Below are positions 26,995-56,101 of a stretch of DNA of 64,000 nt, in pieces. The notes under the pieces were generated by a model, which saw nothing but the letters and a program-made list of their open reading frames with translations, did not search any database and was not told where the DNA came from. Made by a program: the position numbers and the translations under genes. The DNA comes from Candidatus Poribacteria bacterium (GTDB lineage Bacteria; Poribacteria; WGA-4E; PCPOR2b), in contig JAPPKS010000012.1 of NCBI GenBank assembly GCA_028819845.1, forward strand, positions 124,001 through 188,000. The letters are read 5' to 3'. Each line of letters starts with the position of its first letter. Within the stretch, counting starts at the first letter, position 1.

Positions 26995-27300
26995 CTAGCA
27001 GGCATTCTCCGCATGCCGCGCTTTTAAAGTAATAGGCACACTCCGTATGCCGTAGCCTTTAAAGTAGTAGCCGCACCCCGTATGCCGTGCTTTTAAAGTA
27101 GTAGGCATACTCCGTATGCCGTTGCCTTTAAAGTAGTAGCCGCATCCCGTATGCCATGCTTTTAAAGTAGTAGGCACACTCCGTGTGCCGTGCTTTTAAA
27201 GTAGTAGCCACACTCCGTATGCCATGCTTTTAAAGTAGTAGGCATACTCCGTATGCCGTCATTTTAAAGTAGTAGGCACGCGGAGTGTGCCTGCTACTTT
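26995..27300. repeat. Tandem array of a 34-35 bp hairpin repeat (eight units) ending in a palindrome
   Basis: Eight successive degenerate units of about 34-35 bp lie back to back with no unique spacers. The core resembles GGCACACTCCGTGTGCC, itself a palindrome in the best units. Units alternate between a GTAGTAGGC form and a GTAGTAGCC form, giving a superperiod near 69 bp. The array closes with an inverted copy that forms a hairpin at 27267-27300. It fills the space between two convergent genes and may act in transcript ends for both strands, though that is inference. The same family recurs at 29831-30042 and 31119-31218. Confidence 0.85.
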
Positions 27301-29830: not shown

Positions 29831-30042
29831 AAGTAGCAGGTATATTCCGTATGCCGTAGCCTCTTAAAGTAGCAGGCACACTCCATATGCCGTAGCCTTT
29901 TAAAGTAGCAGGCACGCTCCATATGCCGTAGCCTCTTAAAGTAGTAGGCACACTCCGTGTGCCGTAATCCTGGTCCCAATGCTCTGCCATCGGTGTTCAA
30001 TGCAATAGGTGGAATTTACGGCACACGGAGTGTGCCTACTAC
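29831..30042. repeat. Hairpin repeat locus with a perfect 27 bp inverted repeat
   Basis: Three degenerate units of the same repeat as at 26995-27300 are followed by a fourth complete unit (29941-29967). Its exact reverse complement is at 30016-30042, with 48 bp between. All 27 positions pair. The locus lies between two divergent genes, upstream of the acyl-CoA dehydrogenase and the epimerase (start 30097), so it occupies likely promoter space. Confidence 0.88.
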
Positions 30043-31509: not shown

Positions 31510-32403
31510 ATGAGATTTGTATCTTTCGCAGCCGACGGCGGCTCACATTATGGTATTTTAAAAGATGACCGCGTCCTCGACCTGAACGTGGCGGGCGGCG
31601 CGGACTTCCCCAGCGACATGCTCGGTTTAATCGACCTTGGGAGTTCCGGAATTGAACGTGCGCAGCAAGTGGCGGACCAGTCGCCGGACTCTACGTGGCA
31701 GCCGCTCGATCCCGCCACATTGCTCGCACCCATCCCGGTACCCCGCCGCAACGTGTTCTGCATAGGCATGAACTACGCCGCCCACGCAGCCGAAGGCGCT
31801 TTGGCGAGAGGCGTAGAGCCTTCGCTTCCCACGGTACCAGTATTTTTTACCAAAACCACCACCGCGGTCACCGGTCCCTATTCGGATATCCCGTTCGACG
31901 CCGCCGTATCCGACCAGATTGACTGGGAAGTCGAATTGGCGGTCATCATCGGCGGGCGCGGGAAGAACATCTCGCCGGAATCGGCGATGGACTACGTCTT
32001 CGGGTATACCGTCGTCAACGACCTGTCGGCTCGAGATTTACAATTCAGCCATAACCAGTTCTTTAAGGGCAAAAGCCTTGACGGCGCGTGCCCGATGGGA
32101 CCGTGCATCGTCACCGCCGACGAGATTTCAGACCCCCATGCGCTCAACGTACGCTGCACCGTCAACGGCGTCCTCAAGCAGGAGTCGAATACATCCGATC
32201 TCATCTTCGACATTCCCGCGACAATCGACTGGCTGTCGCGCGGGTTAACGATTCAACCGGGCGATGTCATCTCCACGGGCACACCGAGCGGCGTCGGATT
32301 CGCACGCACACCACCCGAATTCCTCTTCCCCGGCGATGTCGTCGAGTGCGAAGTCGAGGAAATCGGAATCATCCGAAATCGGATGGTTGATGTTGGTGGT
32401 TGA
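31510..32403 (+). CDS. Fumarylacetoacetate hydrolase (FAH) family protein
   Basis: A 297-residue protein with the FAH C-terminal fold: a CIGMNYAAHAAEG entry strand (about 77-90), metal-binding Glu residues in DWEVELAVIIG (about 138-148), VFGYTVVNDLSARDLQ (about 157-172) and TGTPSGVGFAR near the C-terminus. Such enzymes hydrolyse or isomerise acyl-pyruvates or decarboxylate oxaloacetate, with Mg or Mn. AAAGGAG stands in front of the ATG. It is a single gene between a MITE and the protease-barrel gene. Substrate unknown. Confidence 0.88.
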   Translation: MRFVSFAADGGSHYGILKDDRVLDLNVAGGADFPSDMLGLIDLGSSGIERAQQVADQSPDSTWQPLDPATLLAPIPVPRRNVFCIGMNYAAHAAEGALARGVEPSLPTVPVFFTKTTTAVTGPYSDIPFDAAVSDQIDWEVELAVIIGGRGKNISPESAMDYVFGYTVVNDLSARDLQFSHNQFFKGKSLDGACPMGPCIVTADEISDPHALNVRCTVNGVLKQESNTSDLIFDIPATIDWLSRGLTIQPGDVISTGTPSGVGFARTPPEFLFPGDVVECEVEEIGIIRNRMVDVGG

Positions 32404-32537
32404 TTTTGTCAATTACTAGAAAAACCTAAATCTCATTCCAGCGTCGTACCTCTCACAAAGATGTTGACGGAGCGTTCTGTAATCCTTGTTGATTCCTAAT
32501 TTCAAACGAACGCTAGTTAGTTGTTGTAGAACAAAAG

Positions 32538-35500
32538 ATGAGATATTTGCTAATCCTAATTTCTGTGATGCTCCTTCTCACGTTTAGGCCCCCTAAGGCA
32601 GTCAGCCTGACTCCCCAGGAGATTTTCAAAAAAACGGCTGACGCAACCGTGCACCTAGCCAGATACAATTCCGAAGGAAAATTACTTCCCATTGGGAGCG
32701 GATTCTTCGTGCGACGGAATTATATCGCGACCAATTTCCACGTAATTGAAGGTGCCGCAGCCGTTGAATTAAGAGCGAAACTTGTCGATAAGAAAGGATG
32801 GTACGCAGTAGCGCGTATTCGAGCAGTTGATGAAAAACACGATTTGGCAATTTTACAAGTGTCGGTTCCAGGGGTCAATCCTGTTCCTTTAGTCGATAGT
32901 GATGCAGTGGAGATTGGCGATGCGGTCTTTGTCGTGGGTAATCCACAAGGTCTAGAGGGTACGTTTTCAATGGGAAACATTAGTCAGGTACGTGTAGTGG
33001 GTGACACAAAGCGACTTCAGTTCAATGCCCCAGTTGCTAAAGGCAACAGTGGGGGGCCTGTGCTAAACAAAGACGGCAATGTAATAGGTGTTGTTTCATT
33101 CAGATGGGGCGACTTCGAAATCCTCGACTTCTCAGCGAATCTCAACTTTGCCATTCCTTCAAACTACCTCAAGAATCTCTTGATACGAAAATTGGGGCCT
33201 GTGAAAACACCCACACGAAAAGCCACACCTCGCATAACAAAATCGCCAAAACCTGCTCAACCGAAACCGTCCACTCCGAAAACCACTCCCAAAAAACCCA
33301 AGCCCTCAAAATCCGTTCCGCCAAAACCGACCACACCAAAACCCACTCCGCAACAGATTGCAAAAAAAGCGTTAGCAGCTACGGTGCACATACGCATAGT
33401 AGATGCAAACGGTCACGCTTCAACCGGAAGTGGATTTTTTGTTCGACCGAACTATATCGCGACCAATTTCCACGTGATTGATGGCGCCGAGGGCGGAGTG
33501 GCAAAACGCGTTGGTCAGAAAACAGTGTACACCATTGAGGGTTTTACCTCAAAAGACAAAGCGCATGACCTGGCAATTTTGCGGGTGTCCGCACCGGGTG
33601 TCCAACCGCTTCCTCTGGGCGATAGTGACGCTGTTGAGATAGGCGATACCGTTTATGCTGCAGGCAATCCAGGACGGTTGGAAGGCACGTTTTCAGATGG
33701 TTTAATTAGTGCAATCCGACCAGAGGGTAACGAACTGATACACGGTAAATTGCTTCAGATGACAGCCCCTATTTCGGCAGGGAGTAGCGGCGGACCCGTC
33801 CTAAACGACAGTAGCGAAGTAATAGGAATATCTGTCGGATTTAGGGAGGGAGGACAGAATCTCAATTACGCTATTCCGGTGAATTATCTCAAGGCTATCA
33901 TAAATGGCCAATTGGACCCAACGACACCGACCACACCAAAAGTCACGCCCAAAAAACGTGACGCGCCAAAAGCTGTGCAACAAAAACCGTCCACACCAAT
34001 AGTCACGCCACAGAAACCTGAACCCTCAAAACCCGTAAACCCAAAACCGTCCACGCCAAATCCCACCCCGCAGAAACCCACGTCGCCAGAACTTGTAAAA
34101 CCAAAACCGATTACGCCAAGAGTCACTCCGAAACCCGCTCCCTCAATGCCAAAACCTTCGCGCCCGCTTTCACCAATGGAACTCCTTCAAAAAGGCATTA
34201 AACAGTATGAAGAGACACAATTCACCGAGGCGATAAAGTCCTTACAGTTGTCCTTAAGTGGGCTAGGGAATCCAGAACAGAGAGCTAAAGCTCATCTTTA
34301 CTTAGGGTGTTCGATATGGGGTTTAGGAGAAGATGTCAATCATGTGCACCGAGAATTTCAGGAGGCGCTCCGCCACAATCCAAATCAAACCTTACCGCCA
34401 AGGGTTGGGGATGATCACCCAGTCTTTCAGCCGCTACTAAAAAAGGTGCGTTCGAAATCAGTTGGCGAGCTGACGATTTCCTGTTCATTACCCCAGTCCG
34501 AAATTTGGATTCACGGAAACCTAATTGAAAGGAAAATGATAGGTACTGGAACAACCAACATTCGCCTATTCATGGGTGACTACATCGTAGAGGGAATTTA
34601 CGAAGACGTAACCCTAAAACAGACCGTTATCATAGAACCTAATGAGCATGAAATAGTCGTCCTCGAACTGCCAGCTATAATCAAGCATGACACCCCCGCA
34701 ACAGTATCAATTGGTGAAACGATTGCACTAACGTTGGATTTAATCTCCGCGGTCCGACCTACACTGGTTGAAGTTCGCTACAAATCCTACAACATGAAAG
34801 GGGACGAATTAGAACAAGGGGTCAAAGAAATGCGTTTGTGGAAGGAGCACGATGCCTCGTCGACACGCACTTACCAGGTGGAATTGTCATTACAAAAGGA
34901 CTTTGGAAAGCTTGACTATTTTTTCGCGGCTGATGAGACAAGGTCTCCAAAAACTGGTCATCATAGCGTCATGATTGAGGAGGACGAGGAAGATCGGAAG
35001 GAATTCGAAGGTGAACTCAAGGAAGTTGAAGACGGTTGGAAGCGGATTCACGACACCAATTCAGCGGCGCAGCTTAAGATAAAAGGTTTGTTGGATACAA
35101 CGGACGCAGCAATTATATCGGCCGAAAGTACCGCAAACATCCACAAATTTAACCGTCACGAGAACTCGGCATCTGAGCAAATACATGAATCGAGAGAATC
35201 GGTAGACGCATTAGTGGCAAGTGCACCAAACGACGAACTGGAACTCGACAACTTGTTAAATTCCTTATCCCATACGCAAGCTGATGCCAAGGCAAACAGA
35301 CGGCTCTCGGATTCCTTCATTGAAACATCGACGACTTCATTGAGAGAAAAAATAAAAGGTACAAAAGACTCGCTGAATGAGTTGGGTGACATGCAACTAC
35401 GCTTGGATAAACAGGAGAGCCAGTTGGCAAAGGTAGTAAAAGAGTTTAACCCGTTGCATCAGGGAATTTGGGCGGGTTTATGGTCAAATATGGTTTCGAA

Positions 35501-36029
35501 AGATGAACCTTCCACTTCTAATCTGGGTGGCGGTGATATGTTCAGCCTCATCTACCTGCGAGAGGGAATAACCCATCGAGCGCGCGGCGTACGACTCGAC
35601 TATTCCTACCAGAATCCAGTTAACACAAGCGTGATAGGTCTGTGGGAGCCAGATTTAGATTTAAGTAAATTAAGAGAAAATGCTATGGGGCTTACGCTCC
35701 TCGGCGGAATAGCAAGATACGGTATCAACTCCACGCAATCTGAAACGATTCAATCCACATCTGAAGAAGCAACACACACTACGCCCATAATCGGTGTTGG
35801 ACTGCAACTCTATCCAGAGCATAGGGTTACAGTGGATCTAAATGGTACAATCAAACTTCAGTCAGCAAATCACGGCGATCGTTTTATCAACAAACATCTT
35901 TATCACTACGAAGTAGGCGTTCGTCTTTACATTGCCCCGGCACTAAATTTGAGAGTAGGATATGGTCAATGGCACTTAGGTAATCGGGATGTTTCCGGTC
36001 TGCAGATTGGCCTAGGCGCTCTATTCTGA
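32538..36029 (+). CDS. Double trypsin-like protease - TPR - PEGA - helical - outer-membrane barrel protein
   Basis: An 1163-residue protein with a signal peptide (1-22). Two S1C (HtrA-like) protease domains follow. The first (about 25-218) has His68, Asp102 and Ser171 in ATNFHVI, KHDLAIL and GNSGGPV. The second (about 272-457) has His312, Asp344 and Ser417. There are no PDZ domains. Pro/Lys/Thr-rich linkers fill 222-272 and 459-545. Then come a TPR-like stretch (548-615), a PEGA-like beta domain (643-713), an Ig-like domain (718-812), a long helical, probably coiled-coil region (815-968), and a beta-rich end (971-1163) finishing in GALF, as outer-membrane barrels do. A likely topology is barrel in the outer membrane with the rest in the periplasm or at the surface. 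Its closest relative is the gene at 36923. Confidence 0.85.
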   Translation: MRYLLILISVMLLLTFRPPKAVSLTPQEIFKKTADATVHLARYNSEGKLLPIGSGFFVRRNYIATNFHVIEGAAAVELRAKLVDKKGWYAVARIRAVDEKHDLAILQVSVPGVNPVPLVDSDAVEIGDAVFVVGNPQGLEGTFSMGNISQVRVVGDTKRLQFNAPVAKGNSGGPVLNKDGNVIGVVSFRWGDFEILDFSANLNFAIPSNYLKNLLIRKLGPVKTPTRKATPRITKSPKPAQPKPSTPKTTPKKPKPSKSVPPKPTTPKPTPQQIAKKALAATVHIRIVDANGHASTGSGFFVRPNYIATNFHVIDGAEGGVAKRVGQKTVYTIEGFTSKDKAHDLAILRVSAPGVQPLPLGDSDAVEIGDTVYAAGNPGRLEGTFSDGLISAIRPEGNELIHGKLLQMTAPISAGSSGGPVLNDSSEVIGISVGFREGGQNLNYAIPVNYLKAIINGQLDPTTPTTPKVTPKKRDAPKAVQQKPSTPIVTPQKPEPSKPVNPKPSTPNPTPQKPTSPELVKPKPITPRVTPKPAPSMPKPSRPLSPMELLQKGIKQYEETQFTEAIKSLQLSLSGLGNPEQRAKAHLYLGCSIWGLGEDVNHVHREFQEALRHNPNQTLPPRVGDDHPVFQPLLKKVRSKSVGELTISCSLPQSEIWIHGNLIERKMIGTGTTNIRLFMGDYIVEGIYEDVTLKQTVIIEPNEHEIVVLELPAIIKHDTPATVSIGETIALTLDLISAVRPTLVEVRYKSYNMKGDELEQGVKEMRLWKEHDASSTRTYQVELSLQKDFGKLDYFFAADETRSPKTGHHSVMIEEDEEDRKEFEGELKEVEDGWKRIHDTNSAAQLKIKGLLDTTDAAIISAESTANIHKFNRHENSASEQIHESRESVDALVASAPNDELELDNLLNSLSHTQADAKANRRLSDSFIETSTTSLREKIKGTKDSLNELGDMQLRLDKQESQLAKVVKEFNPLHQGIWAGLWSNMVSKDEPSTSNLGGGDMFSLIYLREGITHRARGVRLDYSYQNPVNTSVIGLWEPDLDLSKLRENAMGLTLLGGIARYGINSTQSETIQSTSEEATHTTPIIGVGLQLYPEHRVTVDLNGTIKLQSANHGDRFINKHLYHYEVGVRLYIAPALNLRVGYGQWHLGNRDVSGLQIGLGALF

Positions 36030-36467
36030 ACAACGTGCAATTGAAACACCCGACTTTAACTAGATTAGAACCATAAATGTCACCGTATAGGGTGGTTGAA
36101 TGGTAAAATTGAATATCAATCAAGGTTAACCTGACTGCTGTTCGTGACCGTCACTGTTGCATAAAATTTATTGCTAACAGAACTCCAAACTTTGCCAATG
36201 ACAGTAAATTGCTAGGTTTCAGGAAATAGAAAATTTCAAGTATCATCGCACTCTGCAATTGAATCATAATGCTCGAAACTTTCATGTGCGCTTTTTAAAC
36301 CAATTAGAATCAAATTAGCGCCTAATCGGTTTAGCTCCTTATCCTCGTTAATTGTAGTCACCAACTGCTGTCGTTCATCAACGTCCATTTTCTTGCATAT
36401 TCCCGATGCAAGTCGCAACCCTACATCAAAATAAAACCAACTCTAATTTCGCAAGGGAGATTACGAT
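36030..36467. other. Intergenic stretch between the two barrel-protease loci
   Basis: These 438 bp hold no recognisable RNA or repeat. A minus-strand ORF (36418-36236, 60 codons, TTG start, acidic helical product with DVDERQQLVTTINEDKEL) has protein-like composition but no known relatives I can name and a poor RBS. It is a weak small-gene candidate. Confidence 0.3.
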
Positions 36468-36926
36468 TTGACTAGGCGTGATTGGGCACTTCTTGCTGTT
36501 GGGATTTTCGTTATTGTCGTAATTATAATCTCTATAGTTGCTGTTAAATCTTGTGGGCGAACCCCTCCCGAGACTCCGCCACCCAAAACCGACGCGGCTA
36601 CGATCACACCAAAGCCCGCATCTGCGAAACCACCTGTGGTATCACCTGCGACTTTGAACGTATCAGTTTCAATCAACGCTGTCCCGTGGGCAGAGGTTTT
36701 CATAAAAACCCCTGGAACAAACAGATTCGTAAAACCGGAAACGAAATTCTTCAAAATCAGACCTGAACCCAATGGAACTGATTCCAACATCACGCCAATA
36801 CGGGGTGAATTAAACGTACCTGCCGGTACGGAAATCAAATTGATTTATGAAGGTAAAGAGGAAACCTTCCCTTACGAGTCTTGGAAGGAAACGAAGTCGA
36901 TATCGCATGATTTTCTGGAGCGATGA
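36468..36926 (+). CDS. Membrane-anchored PEGA-like domain protein
   Basis: A 152-residue protein with one N-terminal membrane helix (about residues 6-29), a Pro-rich spacer (32-60) and a beta-rich domain with VSINAVPWAEVFIKTPG and a GELNVPAGTEIKLIYEG strand pair, like PEGA domains. The start is TTG at 36468 with AGGGAGA seven bases before it. Its TGA overlaps the ATG of the following protease-barrel gene (ATGA at 36923-36926), so the two are translationally coupled and probably work together. A periplasmic domain held at the inner membrane could contact a PEGA-bearing partner; that is inference. Confidence 0.75.
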   Translation: MTRRDWALLAVGIFVIVVIIISIVAVKSCGRTPPETPPPKTDAATITPKPASAKPPVVSPATLNVSVSINAVPWAEVFIKTPGTNRFVKPETKFFKIRPEPNGTDSNITPIRGELNVPAGTEIKLIYEGKEETFPYESWKETKSISHDFLER

Positions 36927-39394
36927 CGTATAGTTCAAAGGACGCCGTTAGTAAATTTCTTGTGACACCCAAGATGAGATTATCCGTCGATTTCAGGATT
37001 TTGATGCTTTTAGTGGTCTGTAGAATCGCCGTTGCAGATACGCCAACTCCCGAACAGATTGCTAAAAGCGCACTAGACGCTACCGTGCTAATTACTATGA
37101 TAGACTCCAGTGGCAAGGTGGCGTCGCGAGGCAGCGGATTCTTCGTGCAACGGAATCTGATTGCAACAAATTTCCATCTGATTAACGGACTGACAAGAGG
37201 TGGTGCACGAAATGTCGGTCAGGAAACGACTTACCCCGTAGTTAAAATTAGCGTAAAGGATGAAAAACACGATCTAGCAATTTTACAGGTGTCGGCACCC
37301 GGAATTGAACCTCTTCCGATTGGCGACAGTGAGTTAGTCGTGGTGGGAGATCGCATTTATGTAGTTGGCAATCCACTAGGTGTACTTGAAGGCACTTTCT
37401 CTGATGGGATTATCAGTGCGATTCGAGAGGTGGATGGCGTAAAGCTATTTCAAGTTTCTGCCCCAATTTTAGAGGGTAACAGCGGCGGTCCAGTGCTAAA
37501 CGCCCAAGGCGAAGTTATAGGCGTTTCACAGGGAATCATCCCAGCCGGAGAAAACCTCAATTTTGCAATTCATTCAATCAATCTTAAAGCGCTCGTCAAT
37601 CAATTGGGACAAAAGACGCTTCAAAGCGGTATTGAACTATATGAAGCCTCTCAATTTGAGGAGGCAATGAAATCTCTGGAGTCCGCATTGAACGTACTTT
37701 CCGACCCGCTAAAGCGCGCCATAGCCCATCTGTACCTTGGGTGTTCTAAACGAGGGTTTGGCGAATCCGATCGCAGCGTGCGTGCGGAGTTTCGAGAAGC
37801 GCTTCGCCACAATCCAAATCAAGCATTGCCACCGCGGATAGGAGCAGATCACCCGGTTTTTAAACTGCTGCTTGAAAAAGTTCGCTCTGAGTCAACGGGG
37901 GAGTTGACAGTTACCTGTTCACTTCTCCAAACCGAAATCTGGATTGACGGGAACGATATTGACAGGAAATTGATAGGCACCGGAACTTCTACCGTCCGAC
38001 TATTTGTGGGCGGCTACATCGCGGAGGGGGTTTTGCAAGGAGTTTCCCAAAAGGAATCTTTCACTATAATTCCTGGTGGGCACAAGATAATCTATTTGGA
38101 ACTGCCGCCAATTTTAAGACATAAACCCCCTGGTAGAACGCTCGTCGGTGAGATTATCCCTCTTTCTTTGGATATAATCAGCCGCGATAAGCCAAATCAT
38201 GTTCAGATTCACTTCATCATCTACGACAGAAACGGGCAAGAAATAAACCGGGGATATCAGGATATGCTTCTGCAGAACGAGCAACCCACGGAGTCCACAT
38301 GGATTTACCGATCGGATTTGCCACCGCAATACACTGTTGGTAAAATGTCATATTTCATCGTGGCTGATGAAGCTAGGTCCCCGAAAGAGCAATACCATGA
38401 AATTGCAATTGTAGACAAAAATTTCCCAGCAATCGAACTGCTAGAACCGCTTGAAGCCGCCGAATTCATGGCCGACCAACCCATTTCGGTTCGAGCAAGA
38501 GTAACTGATAACACCGCTGTAAATGAGGTTCGTATTCATTATGCTTTCTCGCGTTCAGGCGGTTCAAAACCCTCTGAGGTGACACCATCACAGCCCCTGG
38601 AGAGAGAAACTTCTGACGACATATATGTTGGACAAATTCCGGCTCAACAGAGCGGCGCTGGGGCCATCTGGTATTATTTGACCGCGACCGATGAAGAAAA
38701 AAACGAGAGTAAGTCCGATGAAAGAAGGATAGAAATTGTAGTTACAGGCGGAAAACTCCCCTCTCCTAAACCGAAAGATTCGAAAGATTACCATACCAAA
38801 TTTCCATTTCGCCAAGGGATATGGGTGAGTCATGGATGGTCAGATAACATTCCTGATGATGGCGAGTATGATTCCCAATGGGATAGAGGTGATATACTCA
38901 GTTTCAGTTACTTGAGTGAAGGCAGAGGCTATCGGACGCTTGGGGTACAACTGGATTATTCATACCACATTCCTGCCAATACTAGCGCGGCGGTGCAGTG
39001 GTGGCCGGCGATGACACAAGATTCTGTCGGGTTTGCGTTATTGGGGGGAGTGGCGCGATACAGCGATGACGACTCTGGTAGCACTCGGTCAAGTTGGGCC
39101 GGCGGAGATGCCTCAGATGAGTCGCATCATATTACACCGTTTCTCGGTGCAAGTTTGAAATTCTACCCTCTGCATACAGTCGCAGTTGACGGCGCAATTT
39201 CGGCTAAACTTAAGCCGATGGACACATCTTCTAGCGAGGAATCCGATTCTTTCGCGAGATATCTACACCACTACGAATTTGGTACTCGGATTTACATTAC
39301 CCCCGCGTTGAATCTGAAACTCAGCTACGGAAAATGGTTTTTAGGAGATCGTGGAAACGCAACTGTACAGATCGGGCTAGGGGTTACCTTCTAA
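36923..39394 (+). CDS. Trypsin-like protease - TPR - PEGA - Ig-like - outer-membrane barrel protein
   Basis: An 823-residue paralogue of the protein at 32538 with a single protease domain (about 40-228: His84, Asp117, Ser187 in ATNFHLI, KHDLAIL, GNSGGPV). It continues with a TPR-like part (232-300), a PEGA-like domain (325-395) nearly collinear with the paralogue, Ig-like domains (405-495 and 503-608), and a beta-rich C-terminal region (628-823) ending in GVTF. Signal sequence: the ATG at 36923 gives a 17-residue pre-extension, and an ATG at 36974 (MRLSVDF) gives a standard signal peptide. The long helical region of the paralogue is replaced here by a second Ig-like domain. The coupled upstream gene is the PEGA membrane protein. 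Confidence 0.85.
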   Translation: MTYSSKDAVSKFLVTPKMRLSVDFRILMLLVVCRIAVADTPTPEQIAKSALDATVLITMIDSSGKVASRGSGFFVQRNLIATNFHLINGLTRGGARNVGQETTYPVVKISVKDEKHDLAILQVSAPGIEPLPIGDSELVVVGDRIYVVGNPLGVLEGTFSDGIISAIREVDGVKLFQVSAPILEGNSGGPVLNAQGEVIGVSQGIIPAGENLNFAIHSINLKALVNQLGQKTLQSGIELYEASQFEEAMKSLESALNVLSDPLKRAIAHLYLGCSKRGFGESDRSVRAEFREALRHNPNQALPPRIGADHPVFKLLLEKVRSESTGELTVTCSLLQTEIWIDGNDIDRKLIGTGTSTVRLFVGGYIAEGVLQGVSQKESFTIIPGGHKIIYLELPPILRHKPPGRTLVGEIIPLSLDIISRDKPNHVQIHFIIYDRNGQEINRGYQDMLLQNEQPTESTWIYRSDLPPQYTVGKMSYFIVADEARSPKEQYHEIAIVDKNFPAIELLEPLEAAEFMADQPISVRARVTDNTAVNEVRIHYAFSRSGGSKPSEVTPSQPLERETSDDIYVGQIPAQQSGAGAIWYYLTATDEEKNESKSDERRIEIVVTGGKLPSPKPKDSKDYHTKFPFRQGIWVSHGWSDNIPDDGEYDSQWDRGDILSFSYLSEGRGYRTLGVQLDYSYHIPANTSAAVQWWPAMTQDSVGFALLGGVARYSDDDSGSTRSSWAGGDASDESHHITPFLGASLKFYPLHTVAVDGAISAKLKPMDTSSSEESDSFARYLHHYEFGTRIYITPALNLKLSYGKWFLGDRGNATVQIGLGVTF

Positions 39395-39493
39395 GCCATA
39401 GCAACTGGGAAATATTGATACTTTTCTGCCTGAGACACTTATTTAGAATGGATATCGCATCGGATTCCGATCGCCGATAGTAAATTACTTGGT

Positions 39494-40240
39494 TTAGCGG
39501 AAGGTTAAGCCAATTCCAAAGGTAGTATCCGAATGGTCGAACGAGAATGAAAACGCGCCGTGGGCGATAACAGTGGAAGATAAGTGAAGTTCCATTCCAA
39601 TTTGGGCGCCTGTACTGCCTTCATCTTCGCTATCGTCAAAATTGTGTCGTTTATCAGTAACCGTTGTCCATATATGGGTGTACGAAATCCCAAAATACGG
39701 CGTCAACCTCATCCCGGATTCGGTTACTATGCGCTTTAAAAGCCCGCCCATACCGGTCAGCCCCAGAGCGCGTGCGCTCTCACGTGTCTCTGATCCAACA
39801 ACCTCGTTGGCGAAACTAGCGCCGCCTTCAATTGTGAGAAAGGTATCAAAACCCGTTTGTTGCAACGGGTCCATATACTGGATGCTTAGTCAAATTGAAG
39901 GTAATGGAGGTATTTCGACCCCAGGTCTAAAATCCACAGTGTCGTCGTCAACAAATCGCATACCGCCAGCACCTTGGACTTTTGCCCCAAAATCAATTCC
40001 GAATTCGAGTGCGTCGCTGACTATCGGAGTATTCTCCATAAATTGGAGGCCGAACCCGTAAGCACTCTCATCTTTCCCCAACTTCAGGAAACTGAGTTGG
40101 CTATGGGCGGCAACCGGATACACTAAACCAATAAGGAATGTAGCGGTAAGCAATAGACAGAAAACGGTGTACTCGTATCCTTTGACAGGGAATTGTTTTC
40201 GCGCCGGGCGTCGGCATTTCTTACTATCCTTGTCTTTCAT
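39494..40240 (-). pseudogene. Predicted outer-membrane beta-barrel protein interrupted by an in-frame TGA
   Basis: One frame from ATG 40240 to the stop at 39494 encodes 248 positions, with a signal peptide (hydrophobic about 28-43, ending VAAHS), alternating beta strands, and a C-terminus in GIGLTFR. Codon 117, at 39890-39892, is TGA, and coding quality is equal on both sides with no frame change. It may be a fresh nonsense mutation, a sequencing error (TGG or CGA to TGA), or recoding. A 7 bp perfect hairpin with a 6-base loop follows 19 bases after the TGA (39851-39870). It belongs to the local group of barrel genes. Confidence 0.65.
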
Positions 40241-40417
40241 AGCTCCTCCTCAATATAGTGATGGCTTATGATACCACTTGAAACCTTTCTAAGCAACACG
40301 AAAAACTGCTACACCGATCGACGGAAACTTCTCCCATCATGTATAATTGCAGCTATCCACGAGACCTGGTGTAGGTAGGGCTGAACGGTTTAGCAAAGTA
40401 TCAAAACTAGGTGTAGC

Positions 40418-40915
40418 GTGAATTTAAATATGATTAAACTTGTTGGAGTGCTTCTAGCGGTTGTGGCTATAGCCGTTGTCATGCTTATTTTCACCGTCAC
40501 CCTTATACACAGCGACTCCTTTGTACGTCCCACTTCATCTGAGTTCGAAAGTGTTGAACTTGATACGACAGAACAATCGCCAAATAATCTAGGTTTGTCT
40601 ACCGAAGTTGACTTTTTGTTTGAGAGACCTAGATGGTTGCCGGGTGGGGTGACTCAAATTATACCAACTGTCGGGGTGAATTTTGGGTTCATGCGACCGA
40701 TCGCATCTGGGTATGCGTTTGGAAGGTCATTCAAGGTCGGTACGAGTGCAACACTTTCCGATGAAGAGTTAGGTTCTACCTCAAAACATCGCATTTCCTT
40801 TGAATCAGGCATGCGCGTTTACCTATCCCCTACGCAGTATGTGTTGATTACTTGCGGAAGACGGTATGACAAAGATAGCGTCACGACAAACTTTAAGACG
40901 GCGTTGCGGCTTTAA
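40418..40915 (+). CDS. Small envelope protein with N-terminal helix and beta-rich domain
   Basis: A 165-residue protein starting at GTG 40418 behind AGGTG; an ATG four codons later is an alternative. One membrane helix (about residues 7-28) precedes a beta-rich part with IIPTVGVNFGFMRPI and RISFESGMRVYLSP, which read like barrel strands similar in style to the neighbouring barrel genes. A domain of about 130 residues could supply only a small barrel or part of one. No family recognised. It is divergent from the interrupted barrel gene, 177 bp apart. Confidence 0.55.
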   Translation: MNLNMIKLVGVLLAVVAIAVVMLIFTVTLIHSDSFVRPTSSEFESVELDTTEQSPNNLGLSTEVDFLFERPRWLPGGVTQIIPTVGVNFGFMRPIASGYAFGRSFKVGTSATLSDEELGSTSKHRISFESGMRVYLSPTQYVLITCGRRYDKDSVTTNFKTALRL

Positions 40916-40964
40916 TGTTGGCGCGCACCCAGTTAGATGACAACGGTGCAATCACGATGCGTTA

Positions 40965-42203
40965 TTGGAAAGCAAACCGATAATTGTGCGAGGTTCCAGC
41001 GCAAATATAACCAAGTTCTATGTCAGCTCGGCGCTCGGCGGCTTTACGTTATTTCACGGCGTGTTGGGCTTTTACATGCGGCAGATTGGATTTTCGTACA
41101 CCCAAATCTTCTTTTTAGCCGCGCTGTACGAAATATTGGTATTTCTATTGGAAATACCGACTGGCGTATTTGCAGACCGTTTCGGGCTTAAAAAGTGTGC
41201 AGTCCTAGGACACTTCATCTCCGCCGCCAGTTGTTTTCCGATTGCACTGTTTCCGACATCTTACAGCGTGTTCCTTCTCTGGAGCTTGTTGTCAGCGATA
41301 AGCACGACACTGAATTCCGGATCGGTAGAGGCGCTCCAATTCGAGTCGCTGCGGGATATATCGCGCGAAGCAGAATACACAAAGTTGCGCGGCAGATTGG
41401 CCGCTATCGGCGGCTTGTCAATGCCGGTTGGGGCTTTTATCGGCGGTATTCTCTGTGAAAACATCGGTTTTGGAAGAGTAGCCGCGCTCGGCGGCTTGAC
41501 CGGACTATTTATTGCGGCAGTTTATGTCAGTATGAACGAACCGATCGAGGTTCAGCTAGCGCGCGAAAGTTTGACAGCTCAAAGCATATTTAAGCGGATA
41601 GCCGAAAACTTTCGGTTTATTAAAAAGGATAGGGAATTAACCGGAGTCATCATCGCCGGAGCGGTAGTTTATGCAGCGTATCTTCTGATTAATAACTACT
41701 CGCAGCCGTGTTTGGAAGAGGCGGGAATACAGTCGTATCGAATTGTAGGCTTGGTTAGCGGCACCTTTATGCTCGCGTTCGCCGCTGTATCGTGGTGGGC
41801 GGGATATTTGACGCAACGCATCGGGGCGAAAGGCATATTCCTATGGCTGTCGGGCGTGCCGATTTTGAGTTTAGTAGGGTTGGGAAAACTTAAAGGCACC
41901 ACGCTATTAGCGCCGCTTTATCTCTCCAGATTGGGCGAAGGCGTTGCCGAGCCTGTCATCTCGAACCGGTTGCTGCAGAAAAGCCCAGTGGGAAAAAGCG
42001 CAACGCTCCTTTCCACGCATAGCCTGCTTACATCGCTGGTGTTTTCCATATGGAGTATGGCGAGCGGTTATGGTCTGGACAATGTTGGTCGATTCTTAAC
42101 GTTTTCTGCAGGTGCAGCCATTGCGCTTATGATTATGATCTGGAACGGGCGCTGGGTAGTACGAACAAACGACTTAAATTCGCCAAACCAAGCGGGTTAT
42201 TGA
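40965..42203 (+). CDS. Major facilitator superfamily transporter
   Basis: A 412-residue protein with about twelve membrane segments. The MFS motif A is visible as GVFADRFGLKK after the second helix (about residues 68-78), and a central cytoplasmic loop lies near 185-210. The start is taken as TTG 40965, since no ATG lies in frame before the first helix; this start is uncertain. The substrate is not readable. It is followed closely by the GH127-like genes, so uptake of a sugar or a breakdown product is possible. Confidence 0.82.
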   Translation: MESKPIIVRGSSANITKFYVSSALGGFTLFHGVLGFYMRQIGFSYTQIFFLAALYEILVFLLEIPTGVFADRFGLKKCAVLGHFISAASCFPIALFPTSYSVFLLWSLLSAISTTLNSGSVEALQFESLRDISREAEYTKLRGRLAAIGGLSMPVGAFIGGILCENIGFGRVAALGGLTGLFIAAVYVSMNEPIEVQLARESLTAQSIFKRIAENFRFIKKDRELTGVIIAGAVVYAAYLLINNYSQPCLEEAGIQSYRIVGLVSGTFMLAFAAVSWWAGYLTQRIGAKGIFLWLSGVPILSLVGLGKLKGTTLLAPLYLSRLGEGVAEPVISNRLLQKSPVGKSATLLSTHSLLTSLVFSIWSMASGYGLDNVGRFLTFSAGAAIALMIMIWNGRWVVRTNDLNSPNQAGY

Positions 42204-42414
42204 GATTTTGTGTGGAGATTTATTTTTGCTGCGTATTACGGAAACACATAACGGCGCTGCCTTAAGATTTTTATCACGGCATGGACCATTCTTCAATTTC
42301 AGGCAGCGCAAAGGTTGGAATCCGTTGCTTCCAATTCTTCTCACAGTTCAACTGATCGGTCTGATGGATATGCTTTTCGCGGTGGAGGGAAACGGTAAGC
42401 GTAAGGAGGAATCA

Positions 42415-44058
42415 ATGATGCAAAGTGAACAACAAATGGAAACACCCAACACACTCGATTTGGTAGATCGGGCGCGGTTTGCCATCAACGCGATGACACG
42501 AAGTACCAATCCGGAAGCGGAGCACGCGGTCTACTTCACCGGGGTGCTCCACCGCAATCCGCCGACGCTACTGAGGGAGATCCCGCTGTACGGAAAATTC
42601 ATGGAAGGGATGGCGTTAATGCGTATCATGACGAGCGGCGAATTCGACACGCGCCCACCTACGCAACCCGTGGATTTTAACCGGCACGTGGACCGTGTCT
42701 GGCGGGAAGCCTTTCTGCGCAAGCTAGAGAATCAGGAACTTTCATTAGTCGGCGCCGAAGGCGGACGGCAGCTCGCATGGTTGGCGATTCAATATAAGCA
42801 GACCCAAGACTCAATGTGGAAAGAACTCGGCGAAACGGTGATTCAGCGGGCGCTAAAAACGACGGTCCATCAAAACGGCTACTGCTATTTCCCGACTGAC
42901 GCGGAAGGCACAATGCCGACGGCATGGGGGGCTACCTACCAAGGGTGGACGCTCCAGGGCGTGACCCAGTTTTATATGGCGACCGGCTCTGAAGCGGCAC
43001 TGGAACTGGCGGGTAAACTCGCCCGCTACTTGAAAGATCACTCCGGCATGTTTGATGCCGACGGGCGTTTTCTCGCACGCCACGACGTTGATGTTCCGCT
43101 CAACCCGCCGGCAACACGTGGACCTGCGCTGCATTTCCATCACAACGGCAACACGATGGAAGCGCTCTCGGAGTATGCGTGGGCGAGCGGCGAATCGGAA
43201 TTTGGCGAATTCGCCAAGAGATGCTATGAATACGCCCGTTCACGCCCCGACTCATCTCCGCTCATCGGCTTTTTTCAAGAGTACATTGACGATTGGCCCG
43301 ATAACCGCGGCGTCATAGACTGCGAAACCTGTTGCGTCGTTGACATGCTGCTGACGGCGCTCTGGATGACGAAGGCGGGCGTAGGGGATTATTGGGACGA
43401 TATCGACCGATATTTGCGAAACCAGTTCGCCGAGATGCAGATGACCTCCGGCGATTGGTTAACCCGGATGACAGAAGAGCTGCCGTATCGGCCGCCGGGC
43501 GAGGGCGAGATTGCCATGGGTTCGCCTCAGCGCTGGGTCGGCACATTCGCCGGTTGGGCGACTGCCAACGACTTCTTCGCCATCGGCGCGGGTCCCGGCA
43601 TAATGCACTGCTGCACCGGCAACGGGTCACGGGCACTTTACTACCTATGGGAAAATATGCTGGAGTTCAGCGGCGGGGAGTTACAGCTCCATCTACTGCT
43701 CAACCGAAAATCTCCGTGGGTCGAGGTCAGCAGCCGCATCCCGTATGAAGGCAAAGTCGAATTGAAGGTAAAGGAGGCTTGTGACAATATTTCGGTTCGG
43801 GCACCCGAATGGGTCGGAAGTTCAAACGGCGCACTGTCGTGCCGCGTTAACGGCACCCCTCGCAAACTCCGTTGGAAGGGCCGCTATGTTCACATCGGCA
43901 AAGCCGCGCCCGGTGATAAAGTTGAAATTGCATTTCCGATATCGGAACGAACGGTTAAAGAAACAGTGGGCGGTGTGCCGTACACGCTTGTAATCAGGGG
44001 CAATAACGTAATTTCCATCTCACCGCCGGGGAAGAATTATCCTTTTTATAACCGATAA
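42415..44058 (+). CDS. GH127 (DUF1680)-like glycoside hydrolase, copy 1
   Basis: About 547 residues with the (alpha/alpha)6 barrel features of beta-L-arabinofuranosidase relatives. The zinc/nucleophile pieces of GH127 are visible as CETCCVVDM (residues about 372-380 of the long frame) and HCCTGNGSRALYYLWE (about 470-485), which correspond to the Glu-x-Cys and Cys-Cys sites in known enzymes. AAGGAGGA ends four bases before ATG 42415 and seven before ATG 42418, which fixes this start. The frame stays open to 42208 and encodes a signal-like helix similar to that of copy 2. Its expected ATG at 42281 is out of frame by one base, so export may be lost. The next gene is a close paralogue. Confidence 0.8.
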   Translation: MMQSEQQMETPNTLDLVDRARFAINAMTRSTNPEAEHAVYFTGVLHRNPPTLLREIPLYGKFMEGMALMRIMTSGEFDTRPPTQPVDFNRHVDRVWREAFLRKLENQELSLVGAEGGRQLAWLAIQYKQTQDSMWKELGETVIQRALKTTVHQNGYCYFPTDAEGTMPTAWGATYQGWTLQGVTQFYMATGSEAALELAGKLARYLKDHSGMFDADGRFLARHDVDVPLNPPATRGPALHFHHNGNTMEALSEYAWASGESEFGEFAKRCYEYARSRPDSSPLIGFFQEYIDDWPDNRGVIDCETCCVVDMLLTALWMTKAGVGDYWDDIDRYLRNQFAEMQMTSGDWLTRMTEELPYRPPGEGEIAMGSPQRWVGTFAGWATANDFFAIGAGPGIMHCCTGNGSRALYYLWENMLEFSGGELQLHLLLNRKSPWVEVSSRIPYEGKVELKVKEACDNISVRAPEWVGSSNGALSCRVNGTPRKLRWKGRYVHIGKAAPGDKVEIAFPISERTVKETVGGVPYTLVIRGNNVISISPPGKNYPFYNR

Positions 44059-44229
44059 TGGATTTGCGCCTGTCTTAAGCTAACTAATCTGAACAAACGC
44101 GACCTCAATTTGATTCATGGTAGTTTATTATGCGCCGCACAATTCAACCTGCCTACTGAAGTCAATGACGATGATATGACATATTCCAACGATTCACTAA
44201 TCAGTCTTATAGAAAAAGACCCATCAACA

Positions 44230-46011
44230 ATGAGACGGTTATTCAATTTCAATCCCTCGAAATGTTGGAAACTGAGACTCCCATTTATCCGCGCGATTCT
44301 GCCGCTCGGGTTGATTGCCGCCGTTTTCGTTTCGGGGGGCTACGGAAAGCTCAAGGAGGAACCAACGATGCAAAATGAACAATTAGCAGAGGCGCCCAAC
44401 ACGCTAGATTTGGTAGAGCGGGCTGGGTATGCGATTAACGCGATGACGCGAAGTACAAATCCGGAAGCGGAATACGCGGTCTACTTCACCGGCGTGCTCC
44501 ACCGCAACCCGCCGACCCTGTCAGGGCAAATTCCGCTTTACGGAAAATTCATGGAAGGGACAGCGTTGATGCGCATCATGACGAGCGGCGAATTCAACAT
44601 GCGCCCAGCTACCCAACCCAAGGATTTCAATCGACACGTGGACCGCGTCTGGCATGATGCCTTTCTGCGGTTACTTACCGAACATAAGCCGGTGCTTACG
44701 GGACCCGAAGGCGGACGGCAACTCGCATGGTTAGCCATTCAGTATCGCCAGACGAATGACGCAATGTGGAAAGAACTCGGTGAATCGGCGATTCAGCGCG
44801 CGCTTGATGCGGCAGTCCATCAAGATGGCTTCTGTTATTTCCCGCACGGGGCAGAAGTGACGATGCCGACGGGTTGGGGGGCGACCTATCAAGGGTGGAC
44901 GCTTCAAGGGTTGAGCCAGTTTTATATTGCGACCGGTTCGGACGTTGCACTGGAACTGGCGGGCAAACTTGCCCGCTATTTGAAGGATCACGCCGGTGTT
45001 TTTGATGCAGACGGACGGTTTCTATCGCGCCACGGCGATTCCATTCCGCACAGCCCGCCAGCCACACGTGGACCTGCACTGCATTTCCACCACAACGGCA
45101 ATGCGATGGAAGGGCTGATGGAGTACGCGTTGGCGAGCGGCGATGCGGAATATGCTGAATTCGCGAAAAAATGCTATGAATACGCCCGTTCGCTCCCCGA
45201 CTCATCGCCGCTTATCGGCTTTTTTCAGGAGTACATTGACGATTGGCCCGATAACCGCGGCGTCATTGACTGCGAAACCTGCTGTGTTGTTGACATGATG
45301 CTGACGGCGCTCTGGATGACGAAGGCGGGTGTTGGCGATTATTGGGACGACATTGACCGGTACATGCGGAACCAGTTCGCCGAGATGCAGATGACCACCG
45401 GAGATTGGCTGGAAAAAATGAATGAAGGGCTATCATATCAACCGCCGGGCGATGATGAGATTGCGATGGGTTCACCTCAGCGTTGGATCGGCACCTTCGC
45501 CGGTTGGGCGACTGCCAATGACTTCTTCGCCATCGGTGCAGGTCCAGGTATTATGCACTGCTGCACCGGCAACGGGTCACGGGCGCTTTACTATCTCTGG
45601 GAAAATACGCTAGAATACAACGACGGAGAGTTACGGCTCAATCTGCTTCTCAACCGGCAATCTCCATGGGTGCAAGTCAGCAGCCATATCCCGTATGAAG
45701 GCAAGGTTGAGTTGAAGGTCAAGGCGGGGTGTGAAAATATTGCCGTTCGTGCGCCCGAATGGGTGGAAGGGTCAAGCGGCGTACTGTCGTGCCGCGTCAA
45801 CGGCGCCGTCCGCAAACTCAGTTGGAAGGACCGCTATGTGCACATCGGCGAAGCGGCGCCCGGAGATACGGTTGAACTCGCGTTTCCGATATCGGAACGG
45901 ACGGTCGAGGAAACAGTTGGCGGCGTACGTTACACGCTTGTAATCAGGGGCAATAACGTGGTTTCCATCTCACCAAGGGGAAAGAATTACCCGTTCTACC
46001 ACCGCAATTAA
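44230..46011 (+). CDS. GH127 (DUF1680)-like glycoside hydrolase, copy 2
   Basis: About 593 residues from ATG 44230, very similar to copy 1 along the whole catalytic region, with the same CETCCVVDM and HCCTGNGSRALYYLWE sites. The upstream ATG gives a hydrophobic N-terminal segment (LPFIRAILPLGLIAAVFV), so this copy can be exported. A strong AAGGAGGA before ATG 44368 offers an internal start without it. The two genes are a recent tandem duplication. The true glycoside is unknown; arabinofuranosides are the family precedent. Loose assignment to GH127 rests on the Cys/Glu motifs. Confidence 0.8.
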   Translation: MRRLFNFNPSKCWKLRLPFIRAILPLGLIAAVFVSGGYGKLKEEPTMQNEQLAEAPNTLDLVERAGYAINAMTRSTNPEAEYAVYFTGVLHRNPPTLSGQIPLYGKFMEGTALMRIMTSGEFNMRPATQPKDFNRHVDRVWHDAFLRLLTEHKPVLTGPEGGRQLAWLAIQYRQTNDAMWKELGESAIQRALDAAVHQDGFCYFPHGAEVTMPTGWGATYQGWTLQGLSQFYIATGSDVALELAGKLARYLKDHAGVFDADGRFLSRHGDSIPHSPPATRGPALHFHHNGNAMEGLMEYALASGDAEYAEFAKKCYEYARSLPDSSPLIGFFQEYIDDWPDNRGVIDCETCCVVDMMLTALWMTKAGVGDYWDDIDRYMRNQFAEMQMTTGDWLEKMNEGLSYQPPGDDEIAMGSPQRWIGTFAGWATANDFFAIGAGPGIMHCCTGNGSRALYYLWENTLEYNDGELRLNLLLNRQSPWVQVSSHIPYEGKVELKVKAGCENIAVRAPEWVEGSSGVLSCRVNGAVRKLSWKDRYVHIGEAAPGDTVELAFPISERTVEETVGGVRYTLVIRGNNVVSISPRGKNYPFYHRN

Positions 46012-55283: not shown

Positions 55284-55847
55284 TTATTTGGATTTTAAAT
55301 ACATTATGTCAATTAACACGTCGAGTCCTGATGAAATTAGGTCCAAATATTCCCCTAGTTTCTCAAGGTTTAAACCTCCGTCTTTTGAGGGTTTAACTGA
55401 CGAGGTCTGCGTAACCGTCGTATGAGTTGTTTGTACTAAAAACTTTTCGAGTTCGCCGGTTTCAGGATTTGGTGCGTACTCCCATACTTCCTCAATTGTC
55501 TCCGAGGGGGTTTCTGTAACTATCGTATGCGTTCTGTATACAAGTAATTTTTCGAGTTCGCCGGTTTCAGGATTTGGTACGTATTCCCATTCTTCCTCAA
55601 TCGTCTCAGACGGAGTTTGTTTAACTATCGTATGCGATTTGGGTATTGTCAGTTTTTCGAGTTCGCCGGTTTCAGGATTAAGCACGTGCTTGGATTCTTC
55701 CTTAAACGTCTCCGATGTTAACCTAGGTAAATGGCCGGTTGATTCCATTTTGGCAGCTCCCGAACATCCTTGAAGAAGTATTAACGCAAAAACAACACAT
55801 GTGCAGCAGCATGTTGCTAAGACGTTACCGAATCTACCCTTTGTCAT
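55284..55847 (-). CDS. Lipoprotein with three 35-residue tandem repeats
   Basis: About 187 residues from ATG 55847, chosen because GGAGAAC lies in front. An in-frame upstream ATG at 55934 only adds an unlikely tail before the signal. The signal ends in LLQGC, so the Cys near residue 25 is lipidated. Three copies of a 35-residue unit, 105 bp apart in DNA (from about 55446, 55551 and 55656), contain NPETGELEKL and HTIVTETPSETIEE. The unit ends with EEWEYVP. Rich in Glu and Thr. No known domain recognised. It converges on the phosphoesterase gene, 22 bp apart. Confidence 0.8.
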   Translation of the reverse strand: MTKGRFGNVLATCCCTCVVFALILLQGCSGAAKMESTGHLPRLTSETFKEESKHVLNPETGELEKLTIPKSHTIVKQTPSETIEEEWEYVPNPETGELEKLLVYRTHTIVTETPSETIEEVWEYAPNPETGELEKFLVQTTHTTVTQTSSVKPSKDGGLNLEKLGEYLDLISSGLDVLIDIMYLKSK

Positions 55848-56101
55848 AACAGTTCTCCATTCGTCATCAGTCGTTCTAGCGCACGGCCGAGGTATTTCGA
55901 ACAGCTTAGGCACAGTGGATGCCATCATACTCAAAAAGGCAATTTCAGGTCAAGGGAAAAGAACATAACGCTTCATTTCCGATTCTCAAGCGTTGCGTAT
56001 GTTGAGTTTTCAGTTGCGTTTTGCCTGTCGGCGTGCTATGCTTTTTCAGTATTCCCGATTAGCCAAAGCCGTTTCGGAAGCGTTGACCTAAAAAATTGCC
56101 G

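Follow-up and report, generated by a model that had tools for sequence, protein, structure and literature searches.

A barrel-tailed protease family with a linked partner gene in Poribacteria, an apparent undescribed envelope-protease pair

We analyzed a window of 64,000 nucleotides (bases 124001-188000 of contig 26) from a Poribacterial genome of 4.6 Mb that is 96.6% complete, and found three neighboring genes, here called A, B, and C, that appear to belong to an undescribed envelope-protease pair. Genes A and C encode predicted secreted proteases with a common tail that ends in a small barrel, and gene B encodes a short protein with one predicted membrane helix whose relatives accompany this tail in the 10 of 84 genomes of the phylum that carry it in full, also where the type of protease in front of it has changed. 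Judging from the sequences, we lean, if not strongly, toward reading A, B, and C as an envelope-protease unit in which periplasmic proteases anchored in the outer membrane act together with an inner-membrane partner. The first-pass annotation of this DNA had proposed a single undescribed system of five successive genes; we found that the system consists of three genes here and of two in most relatives. The open reading frames (ORFs) A, B, and C, the interrupted gene, and the ORF named 40418 lie at the positions that this annotation had given. For close comparisons, we used nine genomes of the family (G000-G008), and for wider comparisons 84 genomes of the phylum. Numbered by position in the window, the features of the unit are:

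Gene A, 32538..36029, plus strand: 1163 amino acids; signal peptide, protease modules, TPR/PEGA-like region, and C-terminal barrel.
Gene B, 36468..36926, plus strand: 152 amino acids, TTG start; one helix, a linker, and a beta-domain.
Gene C, 36923..39394, plus strand: 823 amino acids; signal peptide, protease module, and C-terminal barrel ending in phenylalanine.
Barrel domain of C, 38813..39391, plus strand: OMP_b-brl match, strand-like alternation, and C-terminal phenylalanine.

By their domain make-up, A and C are predicted to be secreted S1C (HtrA-type) proteases that lack a PDZ domain and carry a common tail, and both would be able to cut. The Trypsin_2 family matched both proteins in the Pfam scan (E 2.3e-58 for A and 9.3e-29 for C), and the histidine, aspartate, and serine (H/D/S) motifs are intact in the two S1C trypsin modules of A (residues 28-214 and 273-456) as well as in the single module of C (residues 45-226). 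In a fold comparison, residues 40-231 of C matched S1C proteases (VIA Z up to 23.7). No PDZ family was found in A or C (Pfam, E <= 1) or in the protein of genome G021 (E <= 0.1). Downstream of the trypsin module, C continues with a TPR region (residues ~231-321), a PEGA-like region (~326-392), an immunoglobulin-like (Ig-like) part (396-612), and the barrel (631-823); translation might instead start at an internal ATG at 36974. Gene A has proline-rich linkers, a TPR/PEGA-like region (546-718), a long insert that partly replaces the Ig-like stretch, and a C-terminal barrel (975-1163). Aligned with six relatives, A and C form one family (40-46% identity to C) with the order signal peptide, at least one protease module, proline-rich linkers, TPR, PEGA-like region, one or more Ig-like parts, and barrel. 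AlphaFold modeled C with fair confidence from the protease through the TPR and PEGA-like parts to the Ig-like part. Pfam gave no match to PEGA (PF08308) in C at E <= 1, and a profile built from 30 Poribacterial PEGA domains aligned with residues 326-392 over 59 columns (hhalign E 7.5e-5), as against E 0.15-0.3 for control parts of C and the barrel.

Gene B and the tail occur together. A search with C found full-length relatives in five of the eight other family genomes (G003, G004, G006, G007, and G008), and in each of these the barrel-tailed gene has a B gene just in front of it; G001, G002, and G005 match C in the protease part only. Among the 84 genomes, the tail profile found the full-size tail in 10 and pieces of it in four more (G010, G012, G015, and G020, which were left out of the tail count), and the B profile matched exactly the 10 genomes with the full tail. 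Each of the 12 B genes precedes a tail gene and points in the same direction. Ten are directly adjacent to it, with gaps of -4 to 40 nt (in the window, B overlaps C by 4 bases, ATGA), and in the other two (G021 and G022 contig 56) one gene of ~510 amino acids lies between B and C. Conversely, 12 of the 13 tail genes have a B gene, the exception being A of the window. The order of B followed by the tail is kept in G021, G022, G032, and G035, and G003 carries B-C-B-C in tandem, its first B being overlapped by a longer antisense ORF. The count of 12 includes the B of G022 contig 43, of which the beta-domain alone matches, and leaves out a B fragment, the start of another copy, at a contig end in G004 and the second-copy matches inside the duplicated B domains of G032 and G035. 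A wider contig search with the tail-alignment profile returned four loci, all in named Poribacteria, and the same search with the C sequence alone found no relative.

Linkage alone does not prove contact, and B and C might be mere neighbors, with C a PDZ-less HtrA-type quality-control protease tethered to the outer membrane and B serving an unrelated role in the envelope. This would fit the S1C module, which is closest to the HtrA family by both sequence and fold, and the presence in the same genomes of trypsin-domain relatives without a barrel. However, all listed B matches in the 84 genomes fall at tail-gene loci, B is paired anew with each duplicate (twice in G003 and at two loci in G022), and it is kept where the protease type differs. 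We consider a mere neighborhood unlikely. That B stays so strictly with the tail in duplicated copies, at separate loci, and with either type of protease suggests that the two work together.

Several features of these loci were observed alongside. The ~510-amino-acid protein whose gene separates B from C in G021 and G022 (L129:8041-9570 and L131:9371-10921) consists of about five repeats that weakly match LSM/Hfq (SH3-like). The tail gene of G032 (L132:6375-9249) is split into two ORFs with internal stops. A DUF4159 gene adjoins B in G006 and G007 (L042:11305-12720 and L044:5613-7079); the family was matched in Pfam by the copies of G006 and G008, and the G007 copy is 78% identical. G008 also carries, ~40 kb from its B-C pair, four tandem S1C trypsin genes (G008:C1, L045:4643-12446), none of which has a barrel and at least some of which have TPR-like tails.

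The type of protease changes on the conserved tail. In 10 of the 13 tail proteins, the N-terminal module is an S1C trypsin (15 modules in all, 13 of them with the H, D, and S motifs), and in the other three (G022 contig 43, G032, and G035) it is a transglutaminase-like domain in which the motifs GDCED and HLA are invariant; G022 contains both types. The transglutaminase-like module weakly matches Transglut_core in Pfam, and the solved structure closest to it in the profile comparison is 4fgo (E 5.7e-5 over ~46 positions), which is annotated as 'Periplasmic protein' and which we take to be Legionella LapG. LapG was the best NCBIfam match of all three modules as well, at a weak score (best E 0.022) that is far under the cut-off. 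The cysteine and histidine motifs are invariant in all three, and two residues of the Cys-His-Asp triad of LapG proteases could be assigned from them. Well-supported branches of the tree built from the TPR/PEGA region force at least two changes of module type; the fewest changes on the barrel tree are likewise two, where a single change is not strictly excluded by the starred branches.

The C-terminal barrel is the part on which the predicted location of these proteases depends. The OMP_b-brl family (PF13505) matches all 13 barrels at E <= 1 (best E 2.5e-10), among them the C-terminal stretch of A (E 0.0014, under the curated cut-off) and C (E 0.096 for the whole protein and 0.0051 for the barrel piece alone). 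A and C had been described in the first-pass annotation as protease-barrels; both carry Trypsin_2 modules and the tail, and the barrel match in the window is weak. All 13 barrels end in phenylalanine, and the strand-like alternation of the barrel was reached by none of 500 shuffles. In the barrel alignment, variation in length falls mostly in alternate connections, as outer loops would show, and the short turns on the opposite side are mostly fixed, with one, after a WGP motif, varying by a few residues. This pattern suggests an even number of strands (8 or 10) and a periplasmic N-terminus.

A different location would follow if A and C were autotransporter-type surface proteases, in which the barrel carries the passenger to the cell surface to act on the host or on neighbors. 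Type V autotransporters have the same order of an N-terminal passenger followed by a C-terminal barrel with a terminal phenylalanine (here in 13 out of 13), Ig-like repeats are common in surface proteins, and Poribacteria are bacteria known from (marine) sponges. Against this, the barrel is much smaller than in autotransporters, with only ~160-190 residues, and the Autotransporter family (PF03797) was found in neither A nor C and was listed for none of the 13 barrels (Pfam, E <= 1). DegP/DegQ and LapG, the known relatives of the two module types, are periplasmic enzymes, and an enzyme acting at the surface would hardly be expected to have a strictly linked partner in the inner membrane. We regard a surface role as quite improbable.

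The partner protein, B, is predicted to consist of a signal-anchor helix (residues 3-28), a disordered linker, and a beta-domain (residues ~63-152) that is probably periplasmic. It had been annotated as a PEGA membrane protein, but none of the seven B proteins matches PEGA in Pfam at E <= 1, and a comparison of B with the 30 Poribacterial PEGA domains gave an hhalign E of 0.052, so that the PEGA assignment was rejected. Fold comparison returned middling matches only, the best being the SusC N-terminal extension domain 9hfj (Z 5.4, root-mean-square deviation 2.7, 65 aligned), and the B profile found no match among PDB sequences. On G022 contig 43 (L130:3243-4319), the B domain is joined to a membrane region of several helices, which may be DUF805-like.

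We propose that A and C are exported and that their C-terminal barrel is seated in the outer membrane, from which the protease, TPR, PEGA-like, and Ig-like parts would hang into the periplasm because the strand number of the barrel is presumably even. B would be held in the inner membrane by its single N-terminal helix, with its beta-domain facing the periplasm. The conserved tail may then serve as a chassis that keeps the cutting module close to the periplasmic side of the outer membrane, this module being an HtrA-type serine protease in most relatives and a LapG-like cysteine protease in some, and B probably binds the chassis to localize, bridge, or gate it. More tentatively, and with less confidence than we place in the unit as such, the whole might be a previously undescribed two-membrane device, in which a barrel chassis of the outer membrane carries a swappable HtrA- or LapG-type protease in the periplasm and B, as its dedicated inner-membrane partner, spans the gap to switch or position the cutting. 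In this proposal, the make-up of domains, the intact catalytic motifs, the strict linkage of B to the tail, and the change of protease type come from computation; insertion into the outer membrane, periplasmic orientation, proteolytic activity, the contact between B and C, and the substrate are presumed.

A number of observations weigh against it. The second modules of G021 and G022 contig 56 are without the H/D/S motifs, which means that not all modules cut, and the tree of B demands no more than one change of module type. The barrels of the window itself score under the Pfam cut-off (17.4 bits against 28.7 for the C piece), AlphaFold left the barrel unfolded (pLDDT, the predicted local distance difference test, under 35; eight sequences), and its strand number and orientation, which we infer, are read from the lengths of turns and loops. 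Furthermore, 74 of the 84 genomes do without the unit, and gene A lacks a B partner upstream, where 134 bases separate it from the preceding gene. Finally, the linkage of B to the tail could stem from joint inheritance of a rare locus without physical interaction.

The individual domains are already known, and their combination is not described in the portions of the literature on Poribacteria and PEGA domains that our search covered. HtrA/Deg proteases (DegP, DegQ, DegS, and the S1C domain of RsgI9) share the S1C trypsin fold and the H/D/S motifs with A and C, which differ from them in lacking PDZ, in being fused to a tail of TPR, PEGA-like, Ig-like, and barrel parts, and in being paired with B. 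Among the envelope proteases known so far, of which DegP, DegS, and LapG are examples, some are periplasmic and untethered and others are attached to the inner membrane. If our proposal is correct, there would be a further means of placing proteolysis between the membranes, namely a protease tethered to the outer membrane by a barrel, with exchangeable catalytic modules and a linked partner in the inner membrane, and two uncharacterized gene families of an uncultured phylum would gain a testable role. The alternative module resembles LapG in its profile match and its conserved cysteine and histidine. It differs in being carried by a putative barrel chassis of the outer membrane, and B is not a LapD. 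LapG itself is a protease on its own in the periplasm, which the cyclic di-GMP receptor LapD recruits (PMC4359373). In sequence, the barrel resembles small OMP_b-brl barrels, except that here it would anchor a large protease of several domains by its C-terminus. With respect to the PEGA domain, residues 326-392 of C match the Poribacterial profile below Pfam detection, and the beta-domain of B does not match.

Two further genes had been included in the five-gene proposal:

Interrupted barrel-like gene, 39494..40240, minus strand: one in-frame TGA at 39889-39891; not part of the unit.
40418 ORF, 40418..40915, plus strand: orphan, 165 amino acids, GTG start, N-terminal hydrophobic stretch; unit membership not supported.

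That all five genes form one system is hardly credible to us. The genes are contiguous and the two small ones look barrel-like, which speaks for it, and the shared style of strand repeats on which the annotation had relied ('YFGISYTH' and 'VGVNFGF') is present. However, the resemblance did not extend to the A/C barrel profile, with which the comparison was not significant for either gene. For the interrupted gene, Pfam gave a weak barrel match, and its membership of the A/C barrel family was rejected. No Pfam or NCBIfam family was assigned to the 40418 ORF, and it has no relative outside itself at E <= 0.01 in the nine genomes; that it might be a cut-down C barrel was suggestive by eye and was rejected (E 0.018 in a single comparison, non-significant). 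The interrupted gene is probably a pseudogene. At E <= 1, its second half has a match in each of the eight other genomes of the family. Seven of these matches reach E 0.005 or better, and the eighth, in G002, is at 0.44 and has an internal stop; all seven stronger ones are intact, and their alignment with the window gene continues through its stop. In the five genomes with a B-C pair, these relatives are found on a different contig from the pair or, in G008, which is a single contig, ~240 kb away. The scattering of genes in relatives had been named as the outcome that would speak against a five-gene system, and this is what we found for the interrupted gene, whereas B and C are kept together (B with the tail in 10 of the 84 genomes) and 40418 is absent from relatives. 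The B-tail loci of relatives showed neither of the two small genes alongside.

The guanine-cytosine content is 45-49% across window positions 32000-42000, compared with 53-56% just outside (26-32 kb and 42-46 kb), a dip that might mark a recent arrival. Rfam and tRNA scans of the window gave no match, and promoter and terminator scans gave signals at chance level only. Elsewhere in the window, two tandem-repeat arrays with related units of 34-36 bases (26996-27279 and 29831-29966) flank CoA-transferase and acyl-CoA dehydrogenase genes. Tandem paralogues lie at 42208-44058 and 44110-46011, the first of which weakly matches the GH127 beta-L-arabinofuranosidase family, and a small protein encoded at 55284-55934 is built of repeats of ~35 amino acids (a 105-base tandem repeat).

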